DNA from: a virus
Length of the DNA stretch: 52,144 bases
Virus record (IMG/VR): IMGVR_UViG_3300009506_000046
Coordinates: 1 to 52,144 of that record
Strand: one strand, 5' to 3'
Part shown: positions 6,255-39,638 of the stretch, piece after piece
Numbering within the stretch: position 1 is the stretch's first letter
How the letters are laid out: each line of letters opens with the position of its first letter
Made by a program: the position numbers and the translations under genes
Notes under the pieces: generated by a model
What the model saw: only the letters and a program-made list of their open reading frames with translations
Databases searched by the model: none
Told to the model about the DNA's origin: nothing

Positions 6255-6634
6255 TGTCAGGTAAAGTCGCTTGGTACGGCGACAAAGTCACCGCTATGGT
6301 CGATGATGCCGCCGACTTAATCATAGAGCGTATCGCGTTCTACGTTGAGGGCGCAGCCAAGACCCGCGCTCCGGTAGACACCGGCTTTATGCGAAACGCG
6401 ATCTACACCATAGCACCCGGTGGCTCGGGTAGATCACAAGCAACAGCACAGGCCAAATCCGTGGCCAACCGCGAGGTAGCGCCATCGCCGAGCGTGGGAG
6501 AACACGAAGCAGCAGTCCACGCAGCAGCAGGTTATACCATCTATCAAGAAAACCGGGTCGGTTTCTTGTGGGGTGGTTTGGAGGAAGCAGCGGGTCAATT
6601 CCCAAACATCGCCGGGGTGGTGCGTCTTGGTTGA
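6254..6634 (+). CDS. Neck/tail-completion protein, HK97 gp10-like
   Basis: A 126-aa protein carrying the hallmark APVDTGFMRNAIY near residue 40 and a GYTIYQENRVGF segment near the C-terminus, as in the HK97 gp10 family of tail-completion proteins. It begins at the ATG joined to the previous stop (TAATG) and overlaps the next gene by 8 nt. It probably sits at the head-proximal end of the tail. Confidence 0.75.
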   Translation: MSGKVAWYGDKVTAMVDDAADLIIERIAFYVEGAAKTRAPVDTGFMRNAIYTIAPGGSGRSQATAQAKSVANREVAPSPSVGEHEAAVHAAAGYTIYQENRVGFLWGGLEEAAGQFPNIAGVVRLG

Positions 6635-7016
6635 TCTAAACTCTGTCATCAAGGCTCATCTCGTAACTTGCGCCGACCTGGCCGACTTAATCTCTAACCG
6701 AGTTTACTCAGCCAGGGACGTCCCGCCGCCAGGTTACGACCTTGACAGTGGTGCCTGCGTCACCTTCCGCGTTCGCGGGGGTGACATTGACTATCCCGAC
6801 GCCTTACACCGCCCTTCCGTTCAGTTCAAGTGCTACGGTCAGAACGACCGCGAGGCGTGGCAAGTCTATCGCGCTCTGTATGATGCGCTTCAGAATACCC
6901 ATTCTGCAAGCATCCTCCATGCTCAACTTGAAGTCCAGGGGCAGTCATTGGAGGAACCAGAAACCGACTGGCCCTTTGTGCTAACGTACTTTCGCTTTTT
7001 AATCAGAGAGTCTTAG
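6627..7016 (+). CDS. Tail terminator protein
   Basis: 129 aa from the TTG at 6627, preceded by a GGGGTGGTG ribosome site and overlapping the gp10-like gene. The pattern NRVYSARDVPPPGY ... CVTFRVRGG ... PSVQFKCYGQNDREAWQVYRAL resembles DUF3168-type tail terminators, which cap the tube at the neck. Its position between the gp10-like gene and the tail tube gene agrees. The longer start at 6573 would overlap the upstream gene by over 60 nt and is less likely. Confidence 0.65.
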   Translation: MVDLNSVIKAHLVTCADLADLISNRVYSARDVPPPGYDLDSGACVTFRVRGGDIDYPDALHRPSVQFKCYGQNDREAWQVYRALYDALQNTHSASILHAQLEVQGQSLEEPETDWPFVLTYFRFLIRES

Positions 7017-7026
7017 GAGGTTCCAA

Positions 7027-7644
7027 ATGGGAACACCGTCAGTAACCAACATCATTCACTCTGGCGCGTGGTTGTACCATGCCCCAGTGGGTGAAACTAT
7101 CCCCGATGAGACCAGCGTAGCTCTCGGGGCGGCTTGGGGTGGCAACTGGGAGCGTGTCGGCTACACCGATGCCCCCTTGACCCTAATCTATGAGTCGGAG
7201 GAAGCCGACATCGCGGTAGAGGAGCACTTGGCCCCCGTCAAGCGTCGGCGTATCTCAGAGAACTTGACCGCCGAGACTGTGCTTGCCGAGTTGACGGCCG
7301 AGTATCTTCAACTTGGCGCCGGTGACCAAGACGCCGTCTCGACCACTGCGGCAGGCGCCTCACAAAAGGGCTATGAGGAAACCGGCCTCGGCGACGAACC
7401 AATCATATCTGAAAAGTCTTGGGGCTTTGAGTGTCGTCACATCGACGCCTCCGGCAACGAGCACCCGTTGAGAGTCTTCATCCACATCGGCACAGGCACG
7501 CTCAACGGTGAGTTGACCTTCAGCCAGAAGGCGGAGGACAAGGCGGGTATCCCGATCCAAGTCAAGGCGTTAGTCGATCCAACTCAATCTGTCGGTCAGC
7601 GCCTGTGTTTGTTCCAGAGGGTAACCGCCCCGGCGACTAGCTAA
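7027..7644 (+). CDS. Major tail (tube) protein
   Basis: A 205-aa beta-rich protein preceded by a strong TAGGAGGTTCC site, as expected for an abundant product. It lies directly before the tail assembly chaperones and tape measure. Segments such as GNWERVGYTDAPLTL and SWGFECRH fit tail-tube proteins of long flexible tails. Confidence 0.75.
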   Translation: MGTPSVTNIIHSGAWLYHAPVGETIPDETSVALGAAWGGNWERVGYTDAPLTLIYESEEADIAVEEHLAPVKRRRISENLTAETVLAELTAEYLQLGAGDQDAVSTTAAGASQKGYEETGLGDEPIISEKSWGFECRHIDASGNEHPLRVFIHIGTGTLNGELTFSQKAEDKAGIPIQVKALVDPTQSVGQRLCLFQRVTAPATS

Positions 7645-7662
7645 AGTGATAAAGGGGATGCG

Positions 7663-8070
7663 ATGAAAACAGTAACCATAGTTCTTGACGGAACAGAGTA
7701 TACAGTTGAGGAACTCCGTAGTCGCAATAACGCAGAGTGGCGCGCGGAGTTGGAAAAGCACTTTAGCGAGATCGCAAACGCAATCGAGGAGCTTGGCGTA
7801 GGTGGTGAAGTGGAAGTGAACGACTTTGACGCTATCGCTGGCCTGGTCCGTTCCTTCAGCGGCAAGCTCCTTGGTTCGGTGGGCATCGTTCACGAAATGG
7901 TCAAAAGCTACCTCCCGCCGAACTTGCATAGTACCCTTGACGATGCCTATGATTCTGAGATCATCGAAGCCTTTATCGCCATCCTTGGTTTGGCCTACCC
8001 TTTTGGATCCGCGGTGGGCAAACTGGTTCAGCTTTGGGAGACGATTGGCTCAACGCCGCGTCAGACATAA
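7663..8070 (+). CDS. Tail assembly chaperone (gpG-like)
   Basis: A 135-aa, largely helical acidic protein between tail tube and tape measure, the slot of lambda gpG. AAGGGGATG precedes the ATG. A canonical slippery heptamer (7998-8004) near its 3' end lies where a second frame (-1) is open to 8306, so a fraction of ribosomes should make a longer gpG-T fusion (114 residues plus about 100). The chaperone coats the tape measure during tube polymerisation. Confidence 0.75.
   Translation: MKTVTIVLDGTEYTVEELRSRNNAEWRAELEKHFSEIANAIEELGVGGEVEVNDFDAIAGLVRSFSGKLLGSVGIVHEMVKSYLPPNLHSTLDDAYDSEIIEAFIAILGLAYPFGSAVGKLVQLWETIGSTPRQT
7998..8004 (+). promoter_or_regulatory. Programmed -1 frameshift site C_CCT_TTT
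   Basis: The heptamer fits X_XXY_YYZ in the zero frame: the last C of TAC, then CCT (P113) and TTT (F114). The -1 frame is open from 7959 to 8306 and continues into the second chaperone part. Slippage gives WIRGG... after F114. This mirrors lambda G/GT. Confidence 0.6.
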
Positions 8071-8306: not shown

Positions 8307-8596
8307 AAGGCAAAGGAATGTCACAAGGTCAAGCGGAAGCAACGGTGCAGAAGGTGCTTGACTTGATGACAACCGACGAAGTTGATGAGATCGTGCCAGA
8401 CGGTGACCCGACCTTTCAACTCATCAGCGATGCGATTATGGCGTGGTACGTGCTCTTGTGGGCATCAGGCGTCTTTCGAACCAGGACCAACAAACAGAGG
8501 CAAGCGGTTGAAAGGACCCTGGCTGGTTCCCTACTCATCCTGGGAACGCTTGTGAAATACACTTATGCTTTGGGGATGCGTAAGGACTCTGACTAA
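8303..8596 (+). CDS. Hypothetical protein between chaperones and tape measure
   Basis: A 97-aa protein whose ATG overlaps the preceding stop (ATGA), so coupled. It has an acidic N-half (DEVDEIVPDGDPT) and two moderately hydrophobic stretches (AWYVLLWASGVF, GSLLILGTLVKYTYALGM). Possibly a third chaperone-like factor or a small membrane protein; no family recognised. Confidence 0.6.
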   Translation: MKGKGMSQGQAEATVQKVLDLMTTDEVDEIVPDGDPTFQLISDAIMAWYVLLWASGVFRTRTNKQRQAVERTLAGSLLILGTLVKYTYALGMRKDSD

Positions 8597-11143
8597 TTGA
8601 GTGTCAAACTCGGCGATGCTCTTGTATACATCAAGGGAGATCGCACAGACTATGACAGCGACTTAGACAGCGCCGAAAAGAAAACCAAGGGATTTGTTTC
8701 CCGAGCAGGCTCGGCGATAAAATCAGGCCTAGGCACCGCCTTTTCTATGGCGAGTGGTATGCTGATTGCCCAAGGCATCGGCAAGATCACAAGCGCCATA
8801 GGCGAGATGGTTTCTGAGGTCCCCCGCGTTGATGCTATGGCCCAAACCTTTGACAAACTGATCCAGTCTGTTGGGGGTGACACCGCCCAGGCGATGCAAC
8901 AACTCCGTGAAGCCACTCGCGGGATGGTCTCTGACGCTGACCTTCTTTACGCTGGCAACAAGTTCCTTGCCATGGGTTTGGCTGAATCATCCGACGAAGC
9001 CGCAAAACTCGCTGAGGTCGCCACTCAATTAGGATTGGCGATGGGCGAGGACGTAACATATAGTATGGAAAATTTTGCTCTGATGCTTGCGAATCAGAGC
9101 ATCCCGCGCCTAGACTCTTTCGGCATCTCCAGCGGCAAAGTTCGCGAACGCATCAAAGAGCTAATGGAGGCCGATTCGTCATTGACCCGCGAGACCGCCT
9201 TCATGACAGCTACCCTCGAGCAAGCCGAGCTCACGATGGCGAAGGTTGGTGAGCAAGGTGACAATGTGGCGGCGTCACAAGCGCGAATGAAAGCCAAGAT
9301 GGAGAATGCCAAAATAGCGATTGGCCGATCCATTCTCCCAATGTGGCAAAAGTTTACTGGGTTCTTGGCCGACACAGCATCTAAGTACATCCCCCTCATC
9401 GCTGACGCCTTTCAAAAGAAAGTCATCCCTTTCCTGCAGAACAAAGTTATGCCCATCCTGGAGGAATTGGGGGGCTGGTTGGGCAAGATGTTGCCCAAGG
9501 CTATCAAGGTCGTCAGCGGTTTTATCACGTCGGTTTTTATTCCCTCCTTCAATCGCTCCGTCGAGGCCGCCGAATTAGTCATCAGCGTCGTCCGTGGCAT
9601 CATTGAGGCTATTCAGCACTTCCTCCAATGGGGCGAGGTGATGGGACCCGAAGAGTTTATCCCAGGGTTTGCCAGTATGCCTGAGTGGCTACAGGGTATA
9701 ATCAATACCGCCTTTGAAATCATGTGGGGCATCGTCGCCTTCATTCAAGATACCCTCATCCCAGGCATTCAGGAGGGGATGGAGTTCCTGTCCACAACCG
9801 TCATCCCGATCATCGTCGCCGTCGCCCAAACCATAATGGAAAAGCTTAACGAGGCTATAGCCTGGGTTCAAGAAAACTGGACGATGATTTCTACTATCAT
9901 TGGCACCGTGCTACAAGTGGTCTATGATACTGTCGTCTCTGTCCTAATCGAGGTTGTGTCCGAGATTATGGACAAAGTCATGATCATCGTCAACTTCATC
10001 CGTGAGAATTGGGACTTAATTCAGCAAACCATTGTCACGGTCATGACAGCCATCGCCACAGTCATAGGCGCGGTTTTGTTTATTATTTACAAAGCGTGGG
10101 AAGAGTTTGGCGATGAGATTACGGCGGTGGTTAAGTTCGTTTGGGATTTGCTCAACACGATCATAGAACAAGCCATGCACCTGATCTTGGGTATCATCAA
10201 AGTTGTCATGCTTGCCATAAATGGCGATTGGTCGGCGATCTGGACCATGATCAAGGACTTTGCCGCCAATATCTGGAACACCATTAAGAGCGTAGTCGAG
10301 TCTATCGCCAATGCTTTGAAAGATGCCATTATCGGCATCATCTCCGCTTTGCAGGGGTGGCTGTCGGGCGCCTGGTCAAGCATCAAATCAACCGCGAGCG
10401 CTACCTGGACCGCGCTGAAGCTTGCGGTTGAATCTCTGGTCAACAACCTACGCACCGCCATTAAAGACATCATCTCCAATGTGCAATCCTGGCTCTCTGA
10501 CCGCTGGAACGATATCAAGCGTGCTGCGGCTGATGCCTGGGAAGCGGTCAAGGCGATTGTCTCAACCAAGGTCAACACTCTCAAAACCAACTTGCAATCC
10601 GCTTTTGAGAACATAAAAACGGTCATCTCTAACATTTGGGACGCCATCAAAACAGTTATCTCCCGTGCCTGGGAAGGAATCAAGGGCATAGTCTCCGACT
10701 CTATTAATGCCGTGTTGGGAATCCTGCGTGGCATTGTCGGTCAGTTCGAGGCCGCGGGTCGTGCCGTGGTTGACGCCGTGCGTAACGGTATCGCCAACGC
10801 CTGGGATGGTCTTGTTGGATGGTTCAAAGACAAACTCAACGATCTACGTAACATGCTCCCGTTCAGTGAACCGAAAGCAGGCCCCGCCTCGCCATTGTAC
10901 GGGTTAGGAAAAGCGGGAGAGGCCATCATTGGCAATCTGGCTCAGGGCGCCGACCGAGCTCTGAGCGCGGGCGGTCTTGGTGTGTTGGCAAACTTGCCGC
11001 AAGCCATTGCCTCAGCGATAGCCAGCACCAGATTGACAACCGCTTCTGGCCCTATCTTCAACATCGACGCTCACTACGCCTACCGGGAGGAAACTGACCT
11101 GGTGACCGATATACAGATGCTGAGAAAGTTGTACGGGGGATAG
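8597..11143 (+). CDS. Tail tape measure protein
   Basis: An 848-aa protein, the longest in the tail block after the hub. It starts at a TTG directly after the previous stop. The N-terminus (VYIKGDRTDYDSDLDSAEKKTKGF) and first hydrophobic segment (SGLGTAFSMASGMLIAQGIGKI) are typical. Hydrophobic helices follow at about 390-520, then Trp-containing amphipathic repeats (W..IK......W..LK) at about 550-740. At roughly 0.15 nm per residue it would set a tail of about 127 nm, consistent with a siphovirus. Confidence 0.9.
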   Translation: MSVKLGDALVYIKGDRTDYDSDLDSAEKKTKGFVSRAGSAIKSGLGTAFSMASGMLIAQGIGKITSAIGEMVSEVPRVDAMAQTFDKLIQSVGGDTAQAMQQLREATRGMVSDADLLYAGNKFLAMGLAESSDEAAKLAEVATQLGLAMGEDVTYSMENFALMLANQSIPRLDSFGISSGKVRERIKELMEADSSLTRETAFMTATLEQAELTMAKVGEQGDNVAASQARMKAKMENAKIAIGRSILPMWQKFTGFLADTASKYIPLIADAFQKKVIPFLQNKVMPILEELGGWLGKMLPKAIKVVSGFITSVFIPSFNRSVEAAELVISVVRGIIEAIQHFLQWGEVMGPEEFIPGFASMPEWLQGIINTAFEIMWGIVAFIQDTLIPGIQEGMEFLSTTVIPIIVAVAQTIMEKLNEAIAWVQENWTMISTIIGTVLQVVYDTVVSVLIEVVSEIMDKVMIIVNFIRENWDLIQQTIVTVMTAIATVIGAVLFIIYKAWEEFGDEITAVVKFVWDLLNTIIEQAMHLILGIIKVVMLAINGDWSAIWTMIKDFAANIWNTIKSVVESIANALKDAIIGIISALQGWLSGAWSSIKSTASATWTALKLAVESLVNNLRTAIKDIISNVQSWLSDRWNDIKRAAADAWEAVKAIVSTKVNTLKTNLQSAFENIKTVISNIWDAIKTVISRAWEGIKGIVSDSINAVLGILRGIVGQFEAAGRAVVDAVRNGIANAWDGLVGWFKDKLNDLRNMLPFSEPKAGPASPLYGLGKAGEAIIGNLAQGADRALSAGGLGVLANLPQAIASAIASTRLTTASGPIFNIDAHYAYREETDLVTDIQMLRKLYGG

Positions 11144-21767: not shown

Positions 21768-21795
21768 ATTGTATAACAGGTTTAGGAGAAGTCAA
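21768..21795 (-). promoter_or_regulatory. Class I early promoter (copy 2)
   Basis: -35 TTGACT (21795-21790), 16-nt spacer ending CTGTTA, -10 TACAAT (21773-21768), followed by GGTTATACAATG. Same motif as at 19057 and 44207. It drives the gene starting at 21716. Confidence 0.75.
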
Positions 21796-29743: not shown

Positions 29744-29783
29744 GATACATTGATAATGTATCATATTATTACAAAGTTGTCAA
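29744..29783 (-). promoter_or_regulatory. Class II promoter with palindromic operator (copy 1)
   Basis: -35 TTGACA (29783-29778), 17-nt spacer, -10 TACATT (29760-29755). The -10 lies inside the palindrome GATACATT-GAT-AATGTATC (29744-29762, plus-strand reading). The same operator and spacing recur at 35628-35667. The position over the -10 suits a repressor. It drives the 29648 gene and those after it. Confidence 0.75.
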
Positions 29784-35592: not shown

Positions 35593-35627
35593 CTGACTTC
35601 CCCTTTCTTGAACTCCGGAATTGATAC

Positions 35628-35667
35628 GATACATTGATAATGTATCATATCTCCGCGAGTTTGTCAA
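35628..35667 (-). promoter_or_regulatory. Class II promoter with palindromic operator (copy 2)
   Basis: -35 TTGACA (35667-35662), 17-nt spacer, -10 TACATT (35644-35639), again inside GATACATT-GAT-AATGTATC (35628-35646). Apart from the spacer it matches the copy at 29744. The rest of the 162-nt gap to the DinG-like gene shows nothing else clear. Confidence 0.75.
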
Positions 35668-37400: not shown

Positions 37401-37525
37401 TTTATTAATTAAGCTTGATTAACTAATTAACTCTTAACTTTCCTGTGATAATTAAAAGTTAATTAATTAAAGCGTCTGTAACACTCTTATGTGTTACAGG
37501 TCATTTAATTAATTAACTTTTAATT
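37401..37525. repeat. AT-rich nested inverted repeat, candidate replication origin
   Basis: A perfect 22-bp inverted repeat (37450-37471 with 37504-37525) encloses a second perfect 9-bp repeat (37476-37484 with 37491-37499; loop TCTTAT). Further TTAATTAA elements lie at 37401-37440. The outer arm overlaps the 3' end of the upstream gene. No U-tract follows on either strand, so a simple terminator is unlikely; a cruciform or unwinding element next to the helicase gene fits better. This explains the 129-nt gap. Confidence 0.6.
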
Positions 37526-38088
37526 GATCTCCAAAACCCGCGCCCTGCCGCTGAGCTATACCCCTCTCTTGATGCTACGTTTTTCATTAGTGACCAATCT
37601 TGCTCGTCTCTTATTATGCCCTCGATCTCTGCTGCAGCTTTGATGTCTCCGACCTCGTACTCCTCGCCATTGGCAAGCAACTCTTTCAACCATTCAAGCA
37701 TCGCTTGTGTTTTGGTCGCCGGGGTGGGGGATTTTATAGCGTACGTCCTCAGAAATTCCTCATAGTCGATTTCATGTGCTTCACAAAACTCCCCAAAGTC
37801 TGCTAGCCCCATACGCTCATACAACTCGGCTAGTAGCTCCTGGTCGGACGAATCCGCTTGCCTTCTTAGGGCTTCCAGCTTTGTAATAATGGCAATAGTC
37901 TTTCCGTCAACTTTATCACCTAACTCATCCGACACCGCTTTAAGTCCAGCGAACCAGATATGATTGATTGCTCCGGTTTTACTGGTCCCGAGTGCTGCCC
38001 AAACTTTGATAAACTGCGTCTCCAACTCAAGTACCTCATCCGGTGAACCTCTGGAGTAGACGGGGTAGACTCTAATCACTTGTGCCAT
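37513..38088 (-). CDS. First protein of the minus-strand block; unknown
   Basis: 191 aa, first gene behind the main minus promoter, preceded by AAAGGAAAAAAC. Helical. The C-terminal region (VGDIKAAAEIEGIIRDEQDWSLMKNVASREGY) looks like a winged-helix/HTH of phage replication proteins. The last codons coincide with a tRNA-like stretch and the arm of the inverted repeat. It may be an initiator or regulator; unproved. Confidence 0.65.
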   Translation of the reverse strand: MAQVIRVYPVYSRGSPDEVLELETQFIKVWAALGTSKTGAINHIWFAGLKAVSDELGDKVDGKTIAIITKLEALRRQADSSDQELLAELYERMGLADFGEFCEAHEIDYEEFLRTYAIKSPTPATKTQAMLEWLKELLANGEEYEVGDIKAAAEIEGIIRDEQDWSLMKNVASREGYSSAAGRGFWRSIKS

Positions 38089-38137
38089 GTTTTTTCCTTT
38101 CTGGTGGAGTTAGGTTGGTGGAGTTGGGATTGAAACA

Positions 38138-38278
38138 AAAAAAGCCCTTTGCGCGAGTCCGGCCCCAAGGTAAGTCAGTGAGTTGGGGCCGGGCCAGCCC
38201 CTTAAGAAAAGGGCCGGACCCGTGCAAAGAGCTTTTTTGAGTGCGGTGCACAGTTGTCAAGGTTGCCACTGACTTACC
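38138..38278 (-). promoter_or_regulatory. Leader with mutually exclusive stems and bidirectional terminator
   Basis: The outer stem (T/A tracts plus CTTTGC 38147-38152 with GCAAAG 38224-38229, and 9 bp 38157-38165 with 38211-38219) makes an intrinsic terminator readable from both strands. Inside it, an 8-bp hairpin (38161-38168 with 38183-38190) uses the same bases as the outer stem. Its loop (38169-38180) is exactly complementary to 38267-38278, which is transcribed earlier in the minus leader. This is the geometry of an attenuation switch. Confidence 0.6.
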
Positions 38279-38340
38279 CTTTCTTGCTTGCCCCGTCTGC
38301 GGGTTGCCCAATCCCGCGGGGTTACTTACAACGCACTGCC

Positions 38341-38369
38341 ATTCTAACACATTTCTTACCGTTTGTCAA
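38341..38369 (-). promoter_or_regulatory. Main leftward (early) promoter
   Basis: -35 TTGACA (38369-38364), 17-nt spacer, -10 TAGAAT (38346-38341). The -35 boxes of this and the rightward promoter are 20 bp apart in inverted orientation. A transcript from about 38334 reads through the attenuator-like leader before the 38088 gene. Confidence 0.8.
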
Positions 38370-38389: not shown

Positions 38390-38418
38390 TTGACATTGGC
38401 CCTTTTCTATGCTATACT
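38390..38418 (+). promoter_or_regulatory. Main rightward (late) promoter
   Basis: -35 TTGACA (38390-38395), 17-nt spacer, extended -10 TGC-TATACT (TATACT 38413-38418). Near-consensus sigma-70 type. Transcription should start near 38425, about 30 nt before an intrinsic terminator. Confidence 0.85.
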
Positions 38419-38455
38419 GGACCGGACGAACGGGGAGACGCTGCCCGATTCGGTG

Positions 38456-38491
38456 CCCGCGGTATCCCTGTCGCCCGCGGGTTTTCTTTTT
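38456..38491 (+). terminator. Leader terminator downstream of the late promoter (tR'-like)
   Basis: A 7-bp all-GC stem (38456-38462 with 38475-38481), 12-nt loop, then TTTTCTTTTT. It sits between the late promoter and the holin gene. A preceding hairpin (CGAACGGG 38427-38434 with CCCGATTCG 38444-38452, one bulge) fills the leader. Without antitermination the product would be an RNA of about 65 nt. Confidence 0.8.
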
Positions 38492-38513
38492 CCGTCACCG
38501 AAAGGAGCTGCCT

Positions 38514-38810
38514 GTGGATCTACAAGAGTTTTTAGTATGGGTCTTTGGCGGCGGTGGTAGTATCGCCGCGGCTTACCTCTTGGTCAAGTACATCTCATTT
38601 CTTGACAACCTCGCCAGCGAGCCCAAGCGATATGCTTCCCTTGCCATAGCATCCGTTCTTGGTGGGGCGGCATTCTACCTCAGCACGGTTCTTGGTTACG
38701 TTGACACCCCGGAAAGCGCCAAAGCGTGGATCGAGGCACTATTTGCCATCGCCTGGGTAGTTGTGACCGGCTCTCAAGCCGTCCACGGTCGACTTGACCT
38801 TAGGGAGTAA
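38514..38810 (+). CDS. Holin (three membrane helices)
   Basis: 98 aa from the GTG at 38514, which has AAAGGAG 7 nt upstream; the longer frame from 38409 would cross the promoter and terminator. Hydrophobic helices at about 7-26, 41-60 and 72-90 and a charged C-terminus (HGRLDLRE) give a class I holin topology. It precedes the amidase gene. The holin pores the inner membrane to release the endolysin. Confidence 0.7.
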   Translation: MDLQEFLVWVFGGGGSIAAAYLLVKYISFLDNLASEPKRYASLAIASVLGGAAFYLSTVLGYVDTPESAKAWIEALFAIAWVVVTGSQAVHGRLDLRE

Positions 38811-38935: not shown

Positions 38936-38972
38936 ACGCTACAATGGCTTTCCCTCGCTATAAGGTGACATG

Positions 38973-39638
38973 ATGACAGACCAAAACCCCCTGCAGCTTG
39001 CTACTCAGATGCTCGGCCTCACGAACCAACTTATCGACTCCCTAAGGGGTTTGCCCAAACCTCCTCCTTGGCGCAACATCATTGGCGAACTCGCCACTAA
39101 CCCCGGCCCTTATTCCAACGTTTATCTCAACCGCAGCGGCGGTTGGTGGCAGAGGTCCATGGATGAAATTACAGGCATGACCTTTCACCATACCCTCAGC
39201 GACAGCCCCCACGCTACAGCCGCCCACTATGTCAATTATGGAGGCGGCAGGCCAACCACCCCGTACTCAATTTGGATCACTCAGACCGGCGAGATTCTCC
39301 TTTGCGTCCCTCTAACCTCTGGCTTGTGGCATGACCACACCGGCCACCGAAACACTAACTTATCCATCGGTTTGGCTGGCAAGTTGCATATTTACCAACC
39401 CGCCGATGTCCAACTTTACGCCGCGGCCAAGCTCGTCAAGTGGTTGTTGCACTCTCCTGACTTTCCCCGACTAACTTCAACCGCACAAATCAAAGGCCAC
39501 ATGGACGTAGGAACCTGCAAGAACCGAACAGAGTGCCCCGGCTGGATGACCATTGACGCTGAGCGCGGGGTACAACTCGAGGACCGTTGGAAGAACCGCT
39601 TCCAACGCATCATAGCCAAGGTCTTTGATGCTAACTAA
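38973..39638 (+). CDS. Endolysin: N-acetylmuramoyl-L-alanine amidase (Amidase_2)
   Basis: 221 aa. The zinc ligands of the T7-lysozyme/PGRP fold are visible: H72 in TFHHT, H176 in KGHMD and C188 in TECPG. GLWHDHTGHRN lies between them. It cuts the bond between MurNAc and the peptide stem. An N-terminal helix of about 35 residues precedes the catalytic domain; there is no separate wall-binding domain. AAGGTGAC precedes; the ATG at 38970 is an alternative start. Confidence 0.9.
   Translation: MTDQNPLQLATQMLGLTNQLIDSLRGLPKPPPWRNIIGELATNPGPYSNVYLNRSGGWWQRSMDEITGMTFHHTLSDSPHATAAHYVNYGGGRPTTPYSIWITQTGEILLCVPLTSGLWHDHTGHRNTNLSIGLAGKLHIYQPADVQLYAAAKLVKWLLHSPDFPRLTSTAQIKGHMDVGTCKNRTECPGWMTIDAERGVQLEDRWKNRFQRIIAKVFDAN

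Follow-up and report, generated by a model that had tools for sequence, protein, structure and literature searches.

A strong promoter and a predicted terminator before the late genes of an uncultured tailed phage: a possible gate on late transcription

The late genes of this phage are preceded by a strong promoter and, directly after it, by a predicted terminator; this raises the question of whether the late operon is held at its leader and released by a phage factor. The window analysed is the whole virus record of 52,144 bases, which comes from an uncultured tailed phage. The stretch between 16.9 kb and about 38.1 kb carries minus-strand genes, which include helicases, an FtsK-like protein and many genes without assigned function. 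Plus-strand genes fill the part beyond 38.5 kb as well as the first 16.9 kb of the window; they encode lysis, terminase, portal, head and tail functions. In a relative, L090, homologues of the window's last and first late genes lie side by side; the ends of the record therefore probably join, giving a late arm of about 30 kb. The 30-kb late operon proposed in the initial annotation stands if they do.

The first late gene presumably encodes a holin; this reading is based on three hydrophobic segments and on the neighbouring Amidase_2 gene. Its product has no match in Pfam or PHROGs; the earlier assignment as a holin gene draws on segments and position, not on family. Coordinates of this and the other features are collected in Table 1.

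Table 1. Features of the divergent region between the early and late arms, in order of position
Feature	Position	Strand	Description
First annotated early gene	37513..38088	-	191 aa; candidate DNA-binding regulator
Possible early leader ORF	38072..38269	-	GTG, 65 codons; AAAGGGTAAGTCAGTG fits the start-region motif of four early sites
Large early-leader terminator hairpin (predicted)	38137..38238	-	28-nt arms, 89% complementary; T7 at end
Early terminator loop sequence	38169..38180	-	12/12 complementary to 38267-38278 (leader-ORF ribosome site and start codon)
Divergent early promoter P- (predicted)	38341..38369	-	TTGACA-17 bp with TG-TAGAAT; 11/12 plus TG
Late promoter P+ (predicted)	38390..38418	+	TTGACA-17 bp with TG-TATACT; 11/12 plus TG; start predicted at about 38425
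First leader hairpin (predicted)	38427..38452	+	CGAACGGG...CCCGATTCG; ViennaRNA fold; present in the terminated fold
Competing antiterminator-like helix (predicted)	38427..38473	+	-22.5 kcal/mol while the 3' arm is still missing
Terminator hairpin (predicted)	38455..38482	+	7 G-C pairs plus 1 G-U; 12-nt loop; -14.6 kcal/mol
Read-through hairpin (predicted)	38475..38517	+	-16.9 kcal/mol; joins the terminator 3' arm plus T-tract to the Shine-Dalgarno and GTG of the holin-like gene
T-tract	38482..38491	+	TTTTCTTTTT, from sequence; predicted 3' end of the 62-67 nt RNA
Shine-Dalgarno of holin-like gene	38501..38507	+	AAAGGAG, from sequence
Holin-like gene	38514..38810	+	98 aa; GTG start; three TM-like segments (hydropathy), position; first late-operon gene
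Endolysin, Amidase_2	38970..39638	+	Pfam PF01510 (7.8e-12); phrog_1493 (6.2e-12)

Two promoters, P+ and P-, stand back to back between the late and early arms. The parts of P+ are a -35 element TTGACA at 38390-38395, a spacer of 17, TG at 38410-38411 and a -10 element TATACT at 38413-38418 (TGcTATACT). P+ and P- are the only extended -10 promoters in the whole 52-kb window that score at least 11/12 with TG, and the initial annotation was right to describe P+ as near-consensus. Dinucleotide shuffles of the window gave 0.08 sites per strand at 11/12 or better, none of them with TG. On the plus strand P+ is the sole promoter at 11/12 or better; the remaining sites at 10/12 lie within genes or in the early arm. 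P+ was scored as a sigma70-type promoter; use of sigma70 is assumed, and this consensus may not be that of the host.

The stem of the leader terminator begins 31 nt past the predicted start. Its arms, CCCGCGG (38456-38462) and CCGCGGG (38475-38481), are extended by one G-U pair, and TTTTCTTTTT follows with nine T in ten positions; after this come AAAGGAG, the GTG of the holin-like gene, the amidase gene and the rest of the late operon. The GC hairpin and T-rich tract described earlier at about 30 nt downstream are therefore present, and the predicted transcript of 62-67 nt from a start at about 38425 agrees with the short RNA of about 65 nt proposed at that time.

The hairpin alone is unremarkable, since shuffled versions of the 52-kb window yield 0.75 terminators at or below -14 kcal/mol on each strand. 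For a stretch of 70 nt next to the best promoter the expectation falls to roughly 0.75 x 70/52144 = 0.001, which makes the place of the hairpin remarkable. A control on 2.7 Mb of fetched phage sequence gave 69 strong promoters; three have a terminator 25-150 nt downstream, and P+ is the strongest of these. Upstream of P+ the genes are on the minus strand and no plus-strand gene is found; consequently, the terminator has no other evident job. Within the late arm there is neither a strong plus-strand terminator nor another strong plus-strand promoter, so the leader would control the whole arm. The succession of promoter and terminator is confirmed and the combination is beyond chance; termination itself is predicted.

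We consider the chances about even that the late arm is held by the terminator in the P+ leader and relieved late by a phage factor. P+ would be an always-on promoter of the host sigma70 type. Host RNA polymerase would start at about 38425 and would mostly stop at 38482-38491, releasing the 62-67 nt RNA, and the late operon would be kept off despite a fully active promoter. Late in infection, a putative phage factor would allow polymerase to pass the terminator; the holin, endolysin, packaging, head and tail genes would then be transcribed as one unit. The promoter, terminator, ribosome site and gene order are given by the DNA sequence; from them we infer real initiation and termination, the existence and identity of an antitermination factor, and the timing. 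One point against the gate is the size of the loop, as the best intrinsic terminators have loops smaller than 12 nt. In its favour, L090 has a very strong terminator (-26 kcal/mol) directly before its late genes; no promoter was found past it. Promoter-terminator arrangements are proven to gate the lysis genes of lambdoid phages (PMC6606751) and the alpBCDE lysis operon (PMC9371919).

The initial annotation compared the leader with lambda pR'-tR'. The layout supports this comparison: the late promoter, intrinsic terminator, lysis genes and long late operon are shared with the Q-dependent pR'-tR' regions of lambda and phage 21 (PMC6606751). Two features of the Q class can be recognised here: the late operon directly follows a strong sigma70 promoter, and the leader ahead of its first gene contains a predicted intrinsic terminator. 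Membership of the Q class does not follow from the other features. Among the early proteins scanned, neither Pfam nor PHROGs revealed a Q- or N-type protein, as the initial annotation had already noted for Q. In contrast to lambda and phage 21, there is no -10-like sigma-pause element (NANNNT) in +1 to +11 of the transcript; the nearest candidate is GACGCT (2/6) at +12/+13, and the same scan finds AACGAT in lambda. The P+ spacer, TTGGCCCTTTTCTATGC, also lacks the 6-bp direct repeat of a Q21-type site; other Q types use other sites. Unlike in those phages, the early genes diverge from the late arm and do not carry a Q just upstream of it, and a leader terminator follows the early promoter as well.

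Two further systems can be compared. The AlpA-PalpB-tB system of Pseudomonas aeruginosa also places a promoter-terminator gate before cell-lysis genes (PMC9371919). AlpA has no sequence homology to 21Q, yet it works in the same way (PMC9371919); missing homology therefore does not exclude a Q-like protein. No AlpA-like protein was found here, and the -10-like element that AlpA also needs (PMC9371919) was not found either. The put RNA of HK022 resembles this leader in being a promoter-proximal RNA of about 65-75 nt with two stem-loops (PMC9378689), which are predicted here. It differs in that the second stem-loop of the present leader is itself a terminator with a T-tract, whereas put lets polymerase pass distant terminators (PMC9378689).

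If the gate exists, terminator-gated late transcription would extend to a phage lineage that is remote from the lambdoids and has no recognisable Q; an unrelated antitermination factor would then await discovery among the early genes, most of which have no assigned function. As it stands, this is a single sequence-based case with a familiar layout.

Control might also lie in the RNA itself. Before the 3' arm of the terminator has been made, the leader can form a competing helix, which takes part of the terminator 5' arm and most of its loop. This helix is matched by 50 of 1000 dinucleotide shuffles of the first 29 nt and by 8% of mononucleotide shuffles. The read-through hairpin is equalled by 27/1000 and 18/1000 shuffles (2-3%), and the holin start is the fifth most buried among 51 starts. 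These folds are consistent with an attenuator in which the terminator competes with the antiterminator helix, the latter stabilised by an RNA-binding protein or another signal; after read-through, burial of the holin site would delay lysis. Attenuator and riboswitch leaders likewise have mutually exclusive helices around a leader terminator, and a pairing with the ribosome site can be drawn here as in those leaders; in contrast to them, statistical support here is about 0.02-0.08, and the leader matches neither a known aptamer nor an RNA family. The probabilities are borderline, several structures having been inspected; the 101-nt leader as a whole folds no better than shuffles (z -1.19), and the completed terminator is thermodynamically favoured over the competing helix by about 5 kcal/mol. 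An Rfam scan of the leader gave no match at gathering score and low-scoring unrelated ones below it. RNA-level control is suggestive at this locus, and we hold a full attenuator to be unlikely. MIR-type Rfam matches in an AT-rich palindrome were taken as composition effects.

Other roles for the hairpin were also considered. If the terminator were leaky and no antitermination took place, it would merely set the level of late transcription or delay it passively. A strong promoter can afford a leaky stop, and no antiterminator or loading signals were found; this reading is nevertheless unlikely, as a 7-8 bp GC stem with nine T in ten is predicted to be efficient and a 30-kb operon behind an efficient stop would be poorly expressed. 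Lysis genes are often under translational control, and the hairpin sits in the holin 5' UTR with a 3' arm able to pair with the ribosome site. That the hairpin does not terminate transcription but shields the mRNA or regulates holin translation is still quite improbable: a stem directly 5' of TTTTCTTTTT is what a classic terminator looks like, and a T-tract is not required for the other roles. The layout of strong promoter plus terminator is also that of a small-RNA gene, in which case the short RNA would be the product, acting in trans as a regulator, and the operon would be read by leakage. This is very improbable indeed, given that no convincing target exists among the start regions of the window. 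The best match was the holin site, which overlaps the RNA itself and was rejected as a trivial artefact.

Searches of phage, plasmid and IMG/VR sequences found no close relatives of the leader, early genes or lysis genes by DNA or protein, and the leader DNA had no meaningful match in phages or plasmids. TerL profiles led to L090 and L160 (57%), which have head genes in common with the window, not lysis or early genes. The P+ leader has no counterpart in L160; L090 has just the analogous strong terminator before its late genes. No such leader was found in the amidase relatives L234-L236 (for L234 just 299 bp of upstream sequence is available, and L236 extends past its contig end). The leader is not conserved in any fetched sequence, the nearest genomes sharing head genes alone; there is consequently no evolutionary evidence that it matters.

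The early promoter has a leader of its own. The region 38072-38369 (minus strand) contains a promoter, a 5' hairpin, a possible leader ORF and a giant predicted terminator, and resembles a translation-coupled attenuator. The whole early leader folds at about -89 to -92 kcal/mol. The ORF runs through the early terminator and overlaps the start of gene 37513-38088. Loop and ribosome site are complementary over 12 nt; the longest stem in 60 shuffles was 11. The start region of the ORF, AAAGGGTAAGTCAGTG, resembles those at 35599, 31495 and 29717; the motif AAAGGKAAGTCARTG or a near form is common to four early sites on the minus strand (38275, 35599, 31495 and 29717).

These predicted features support attenuation of both arms and do not prove it. 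They allow a wider, unlikely proposal: the region would be a divergent hub, its late arm gated by the short terminator with antiterminator and ribosome-site-masking alternatives and its early arm by the giant ORF-threaded terminator, the loop of which is antisense to the ORF start; a single unrelated regulator, for which the 37513-38088 product is a candidate, would relieve one or both. With the early promoter gated as well, the divergent region would be a compact two-way switch open to experimental test.

The 37513-38088 product has no sequence relatives in the searches made. At full length, the 191-aa protein gave a poor structure model and meaningless fold matches, which were discarded. The C-terminal 74 aa gave a three-helix AlphaFold2 model (pLDDT 74.6). 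Foldseek returned five matches for this model, all non-significant (E above 2); three of the five are helix-turn-helix or winged-helix transcription regulators (a GntR-family regulator, CooA and DhdR). The C-terminal domain may, on this weak indication, be a DNA-binding winged helix. The initial annotation had named this protein as a candidate antiterminator; it may bind DNA, and any binding to polymerase would be hypothetical. At the 3' end of its ORF, 37530-37570 (minus strand), the sequence GGGGTATAGCTCAGCGGCAGGGCGCGGGTTTTGGA resembles the 5' half of a tRNA; neither ARAGORN nor Rfam reported it. Between the helicase gene and 37513-38088, a 35-nt inverted repeat (89%) with TTAATTAA runs lies at 37450-37525; it is possibly a terminator or a replication site.

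L090 has two other features of interest. A gene at 8421-8651, flanked by the strong pre-late terminator and the holin-like gene, encodes a LuxR/sigma-region-4-like helix-turn-helix protein; 21Q also has a sigma-region-4-like fold (PMC6606751). At 6626-8016, an OrfB_IS605/Cas12f1-like TnpB gene is followed by three repeats of 30-36 nt at a spacing of 61-62 nt; in this phage relative they may form a mini CRISPR array.

Other promoters in the window fall into sets. Two early promoters (TTGACA-17-TACATT with TG) carry an identical 19-bp palindrome, GATACATTATCAATGTATC, over the -10 element at 35628-35646 and 29744-29762 (minus strand). Sharing of this palindrome has an expectation of 0 by chance, and the two copies are probably operators of one regulator. 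Three minus-strand promoters, at 21795, 19057 and 44207, have CTGTTATAYAATG around the -10 element; the last lies inside the late arm, and the three are perhaps another promoter class.
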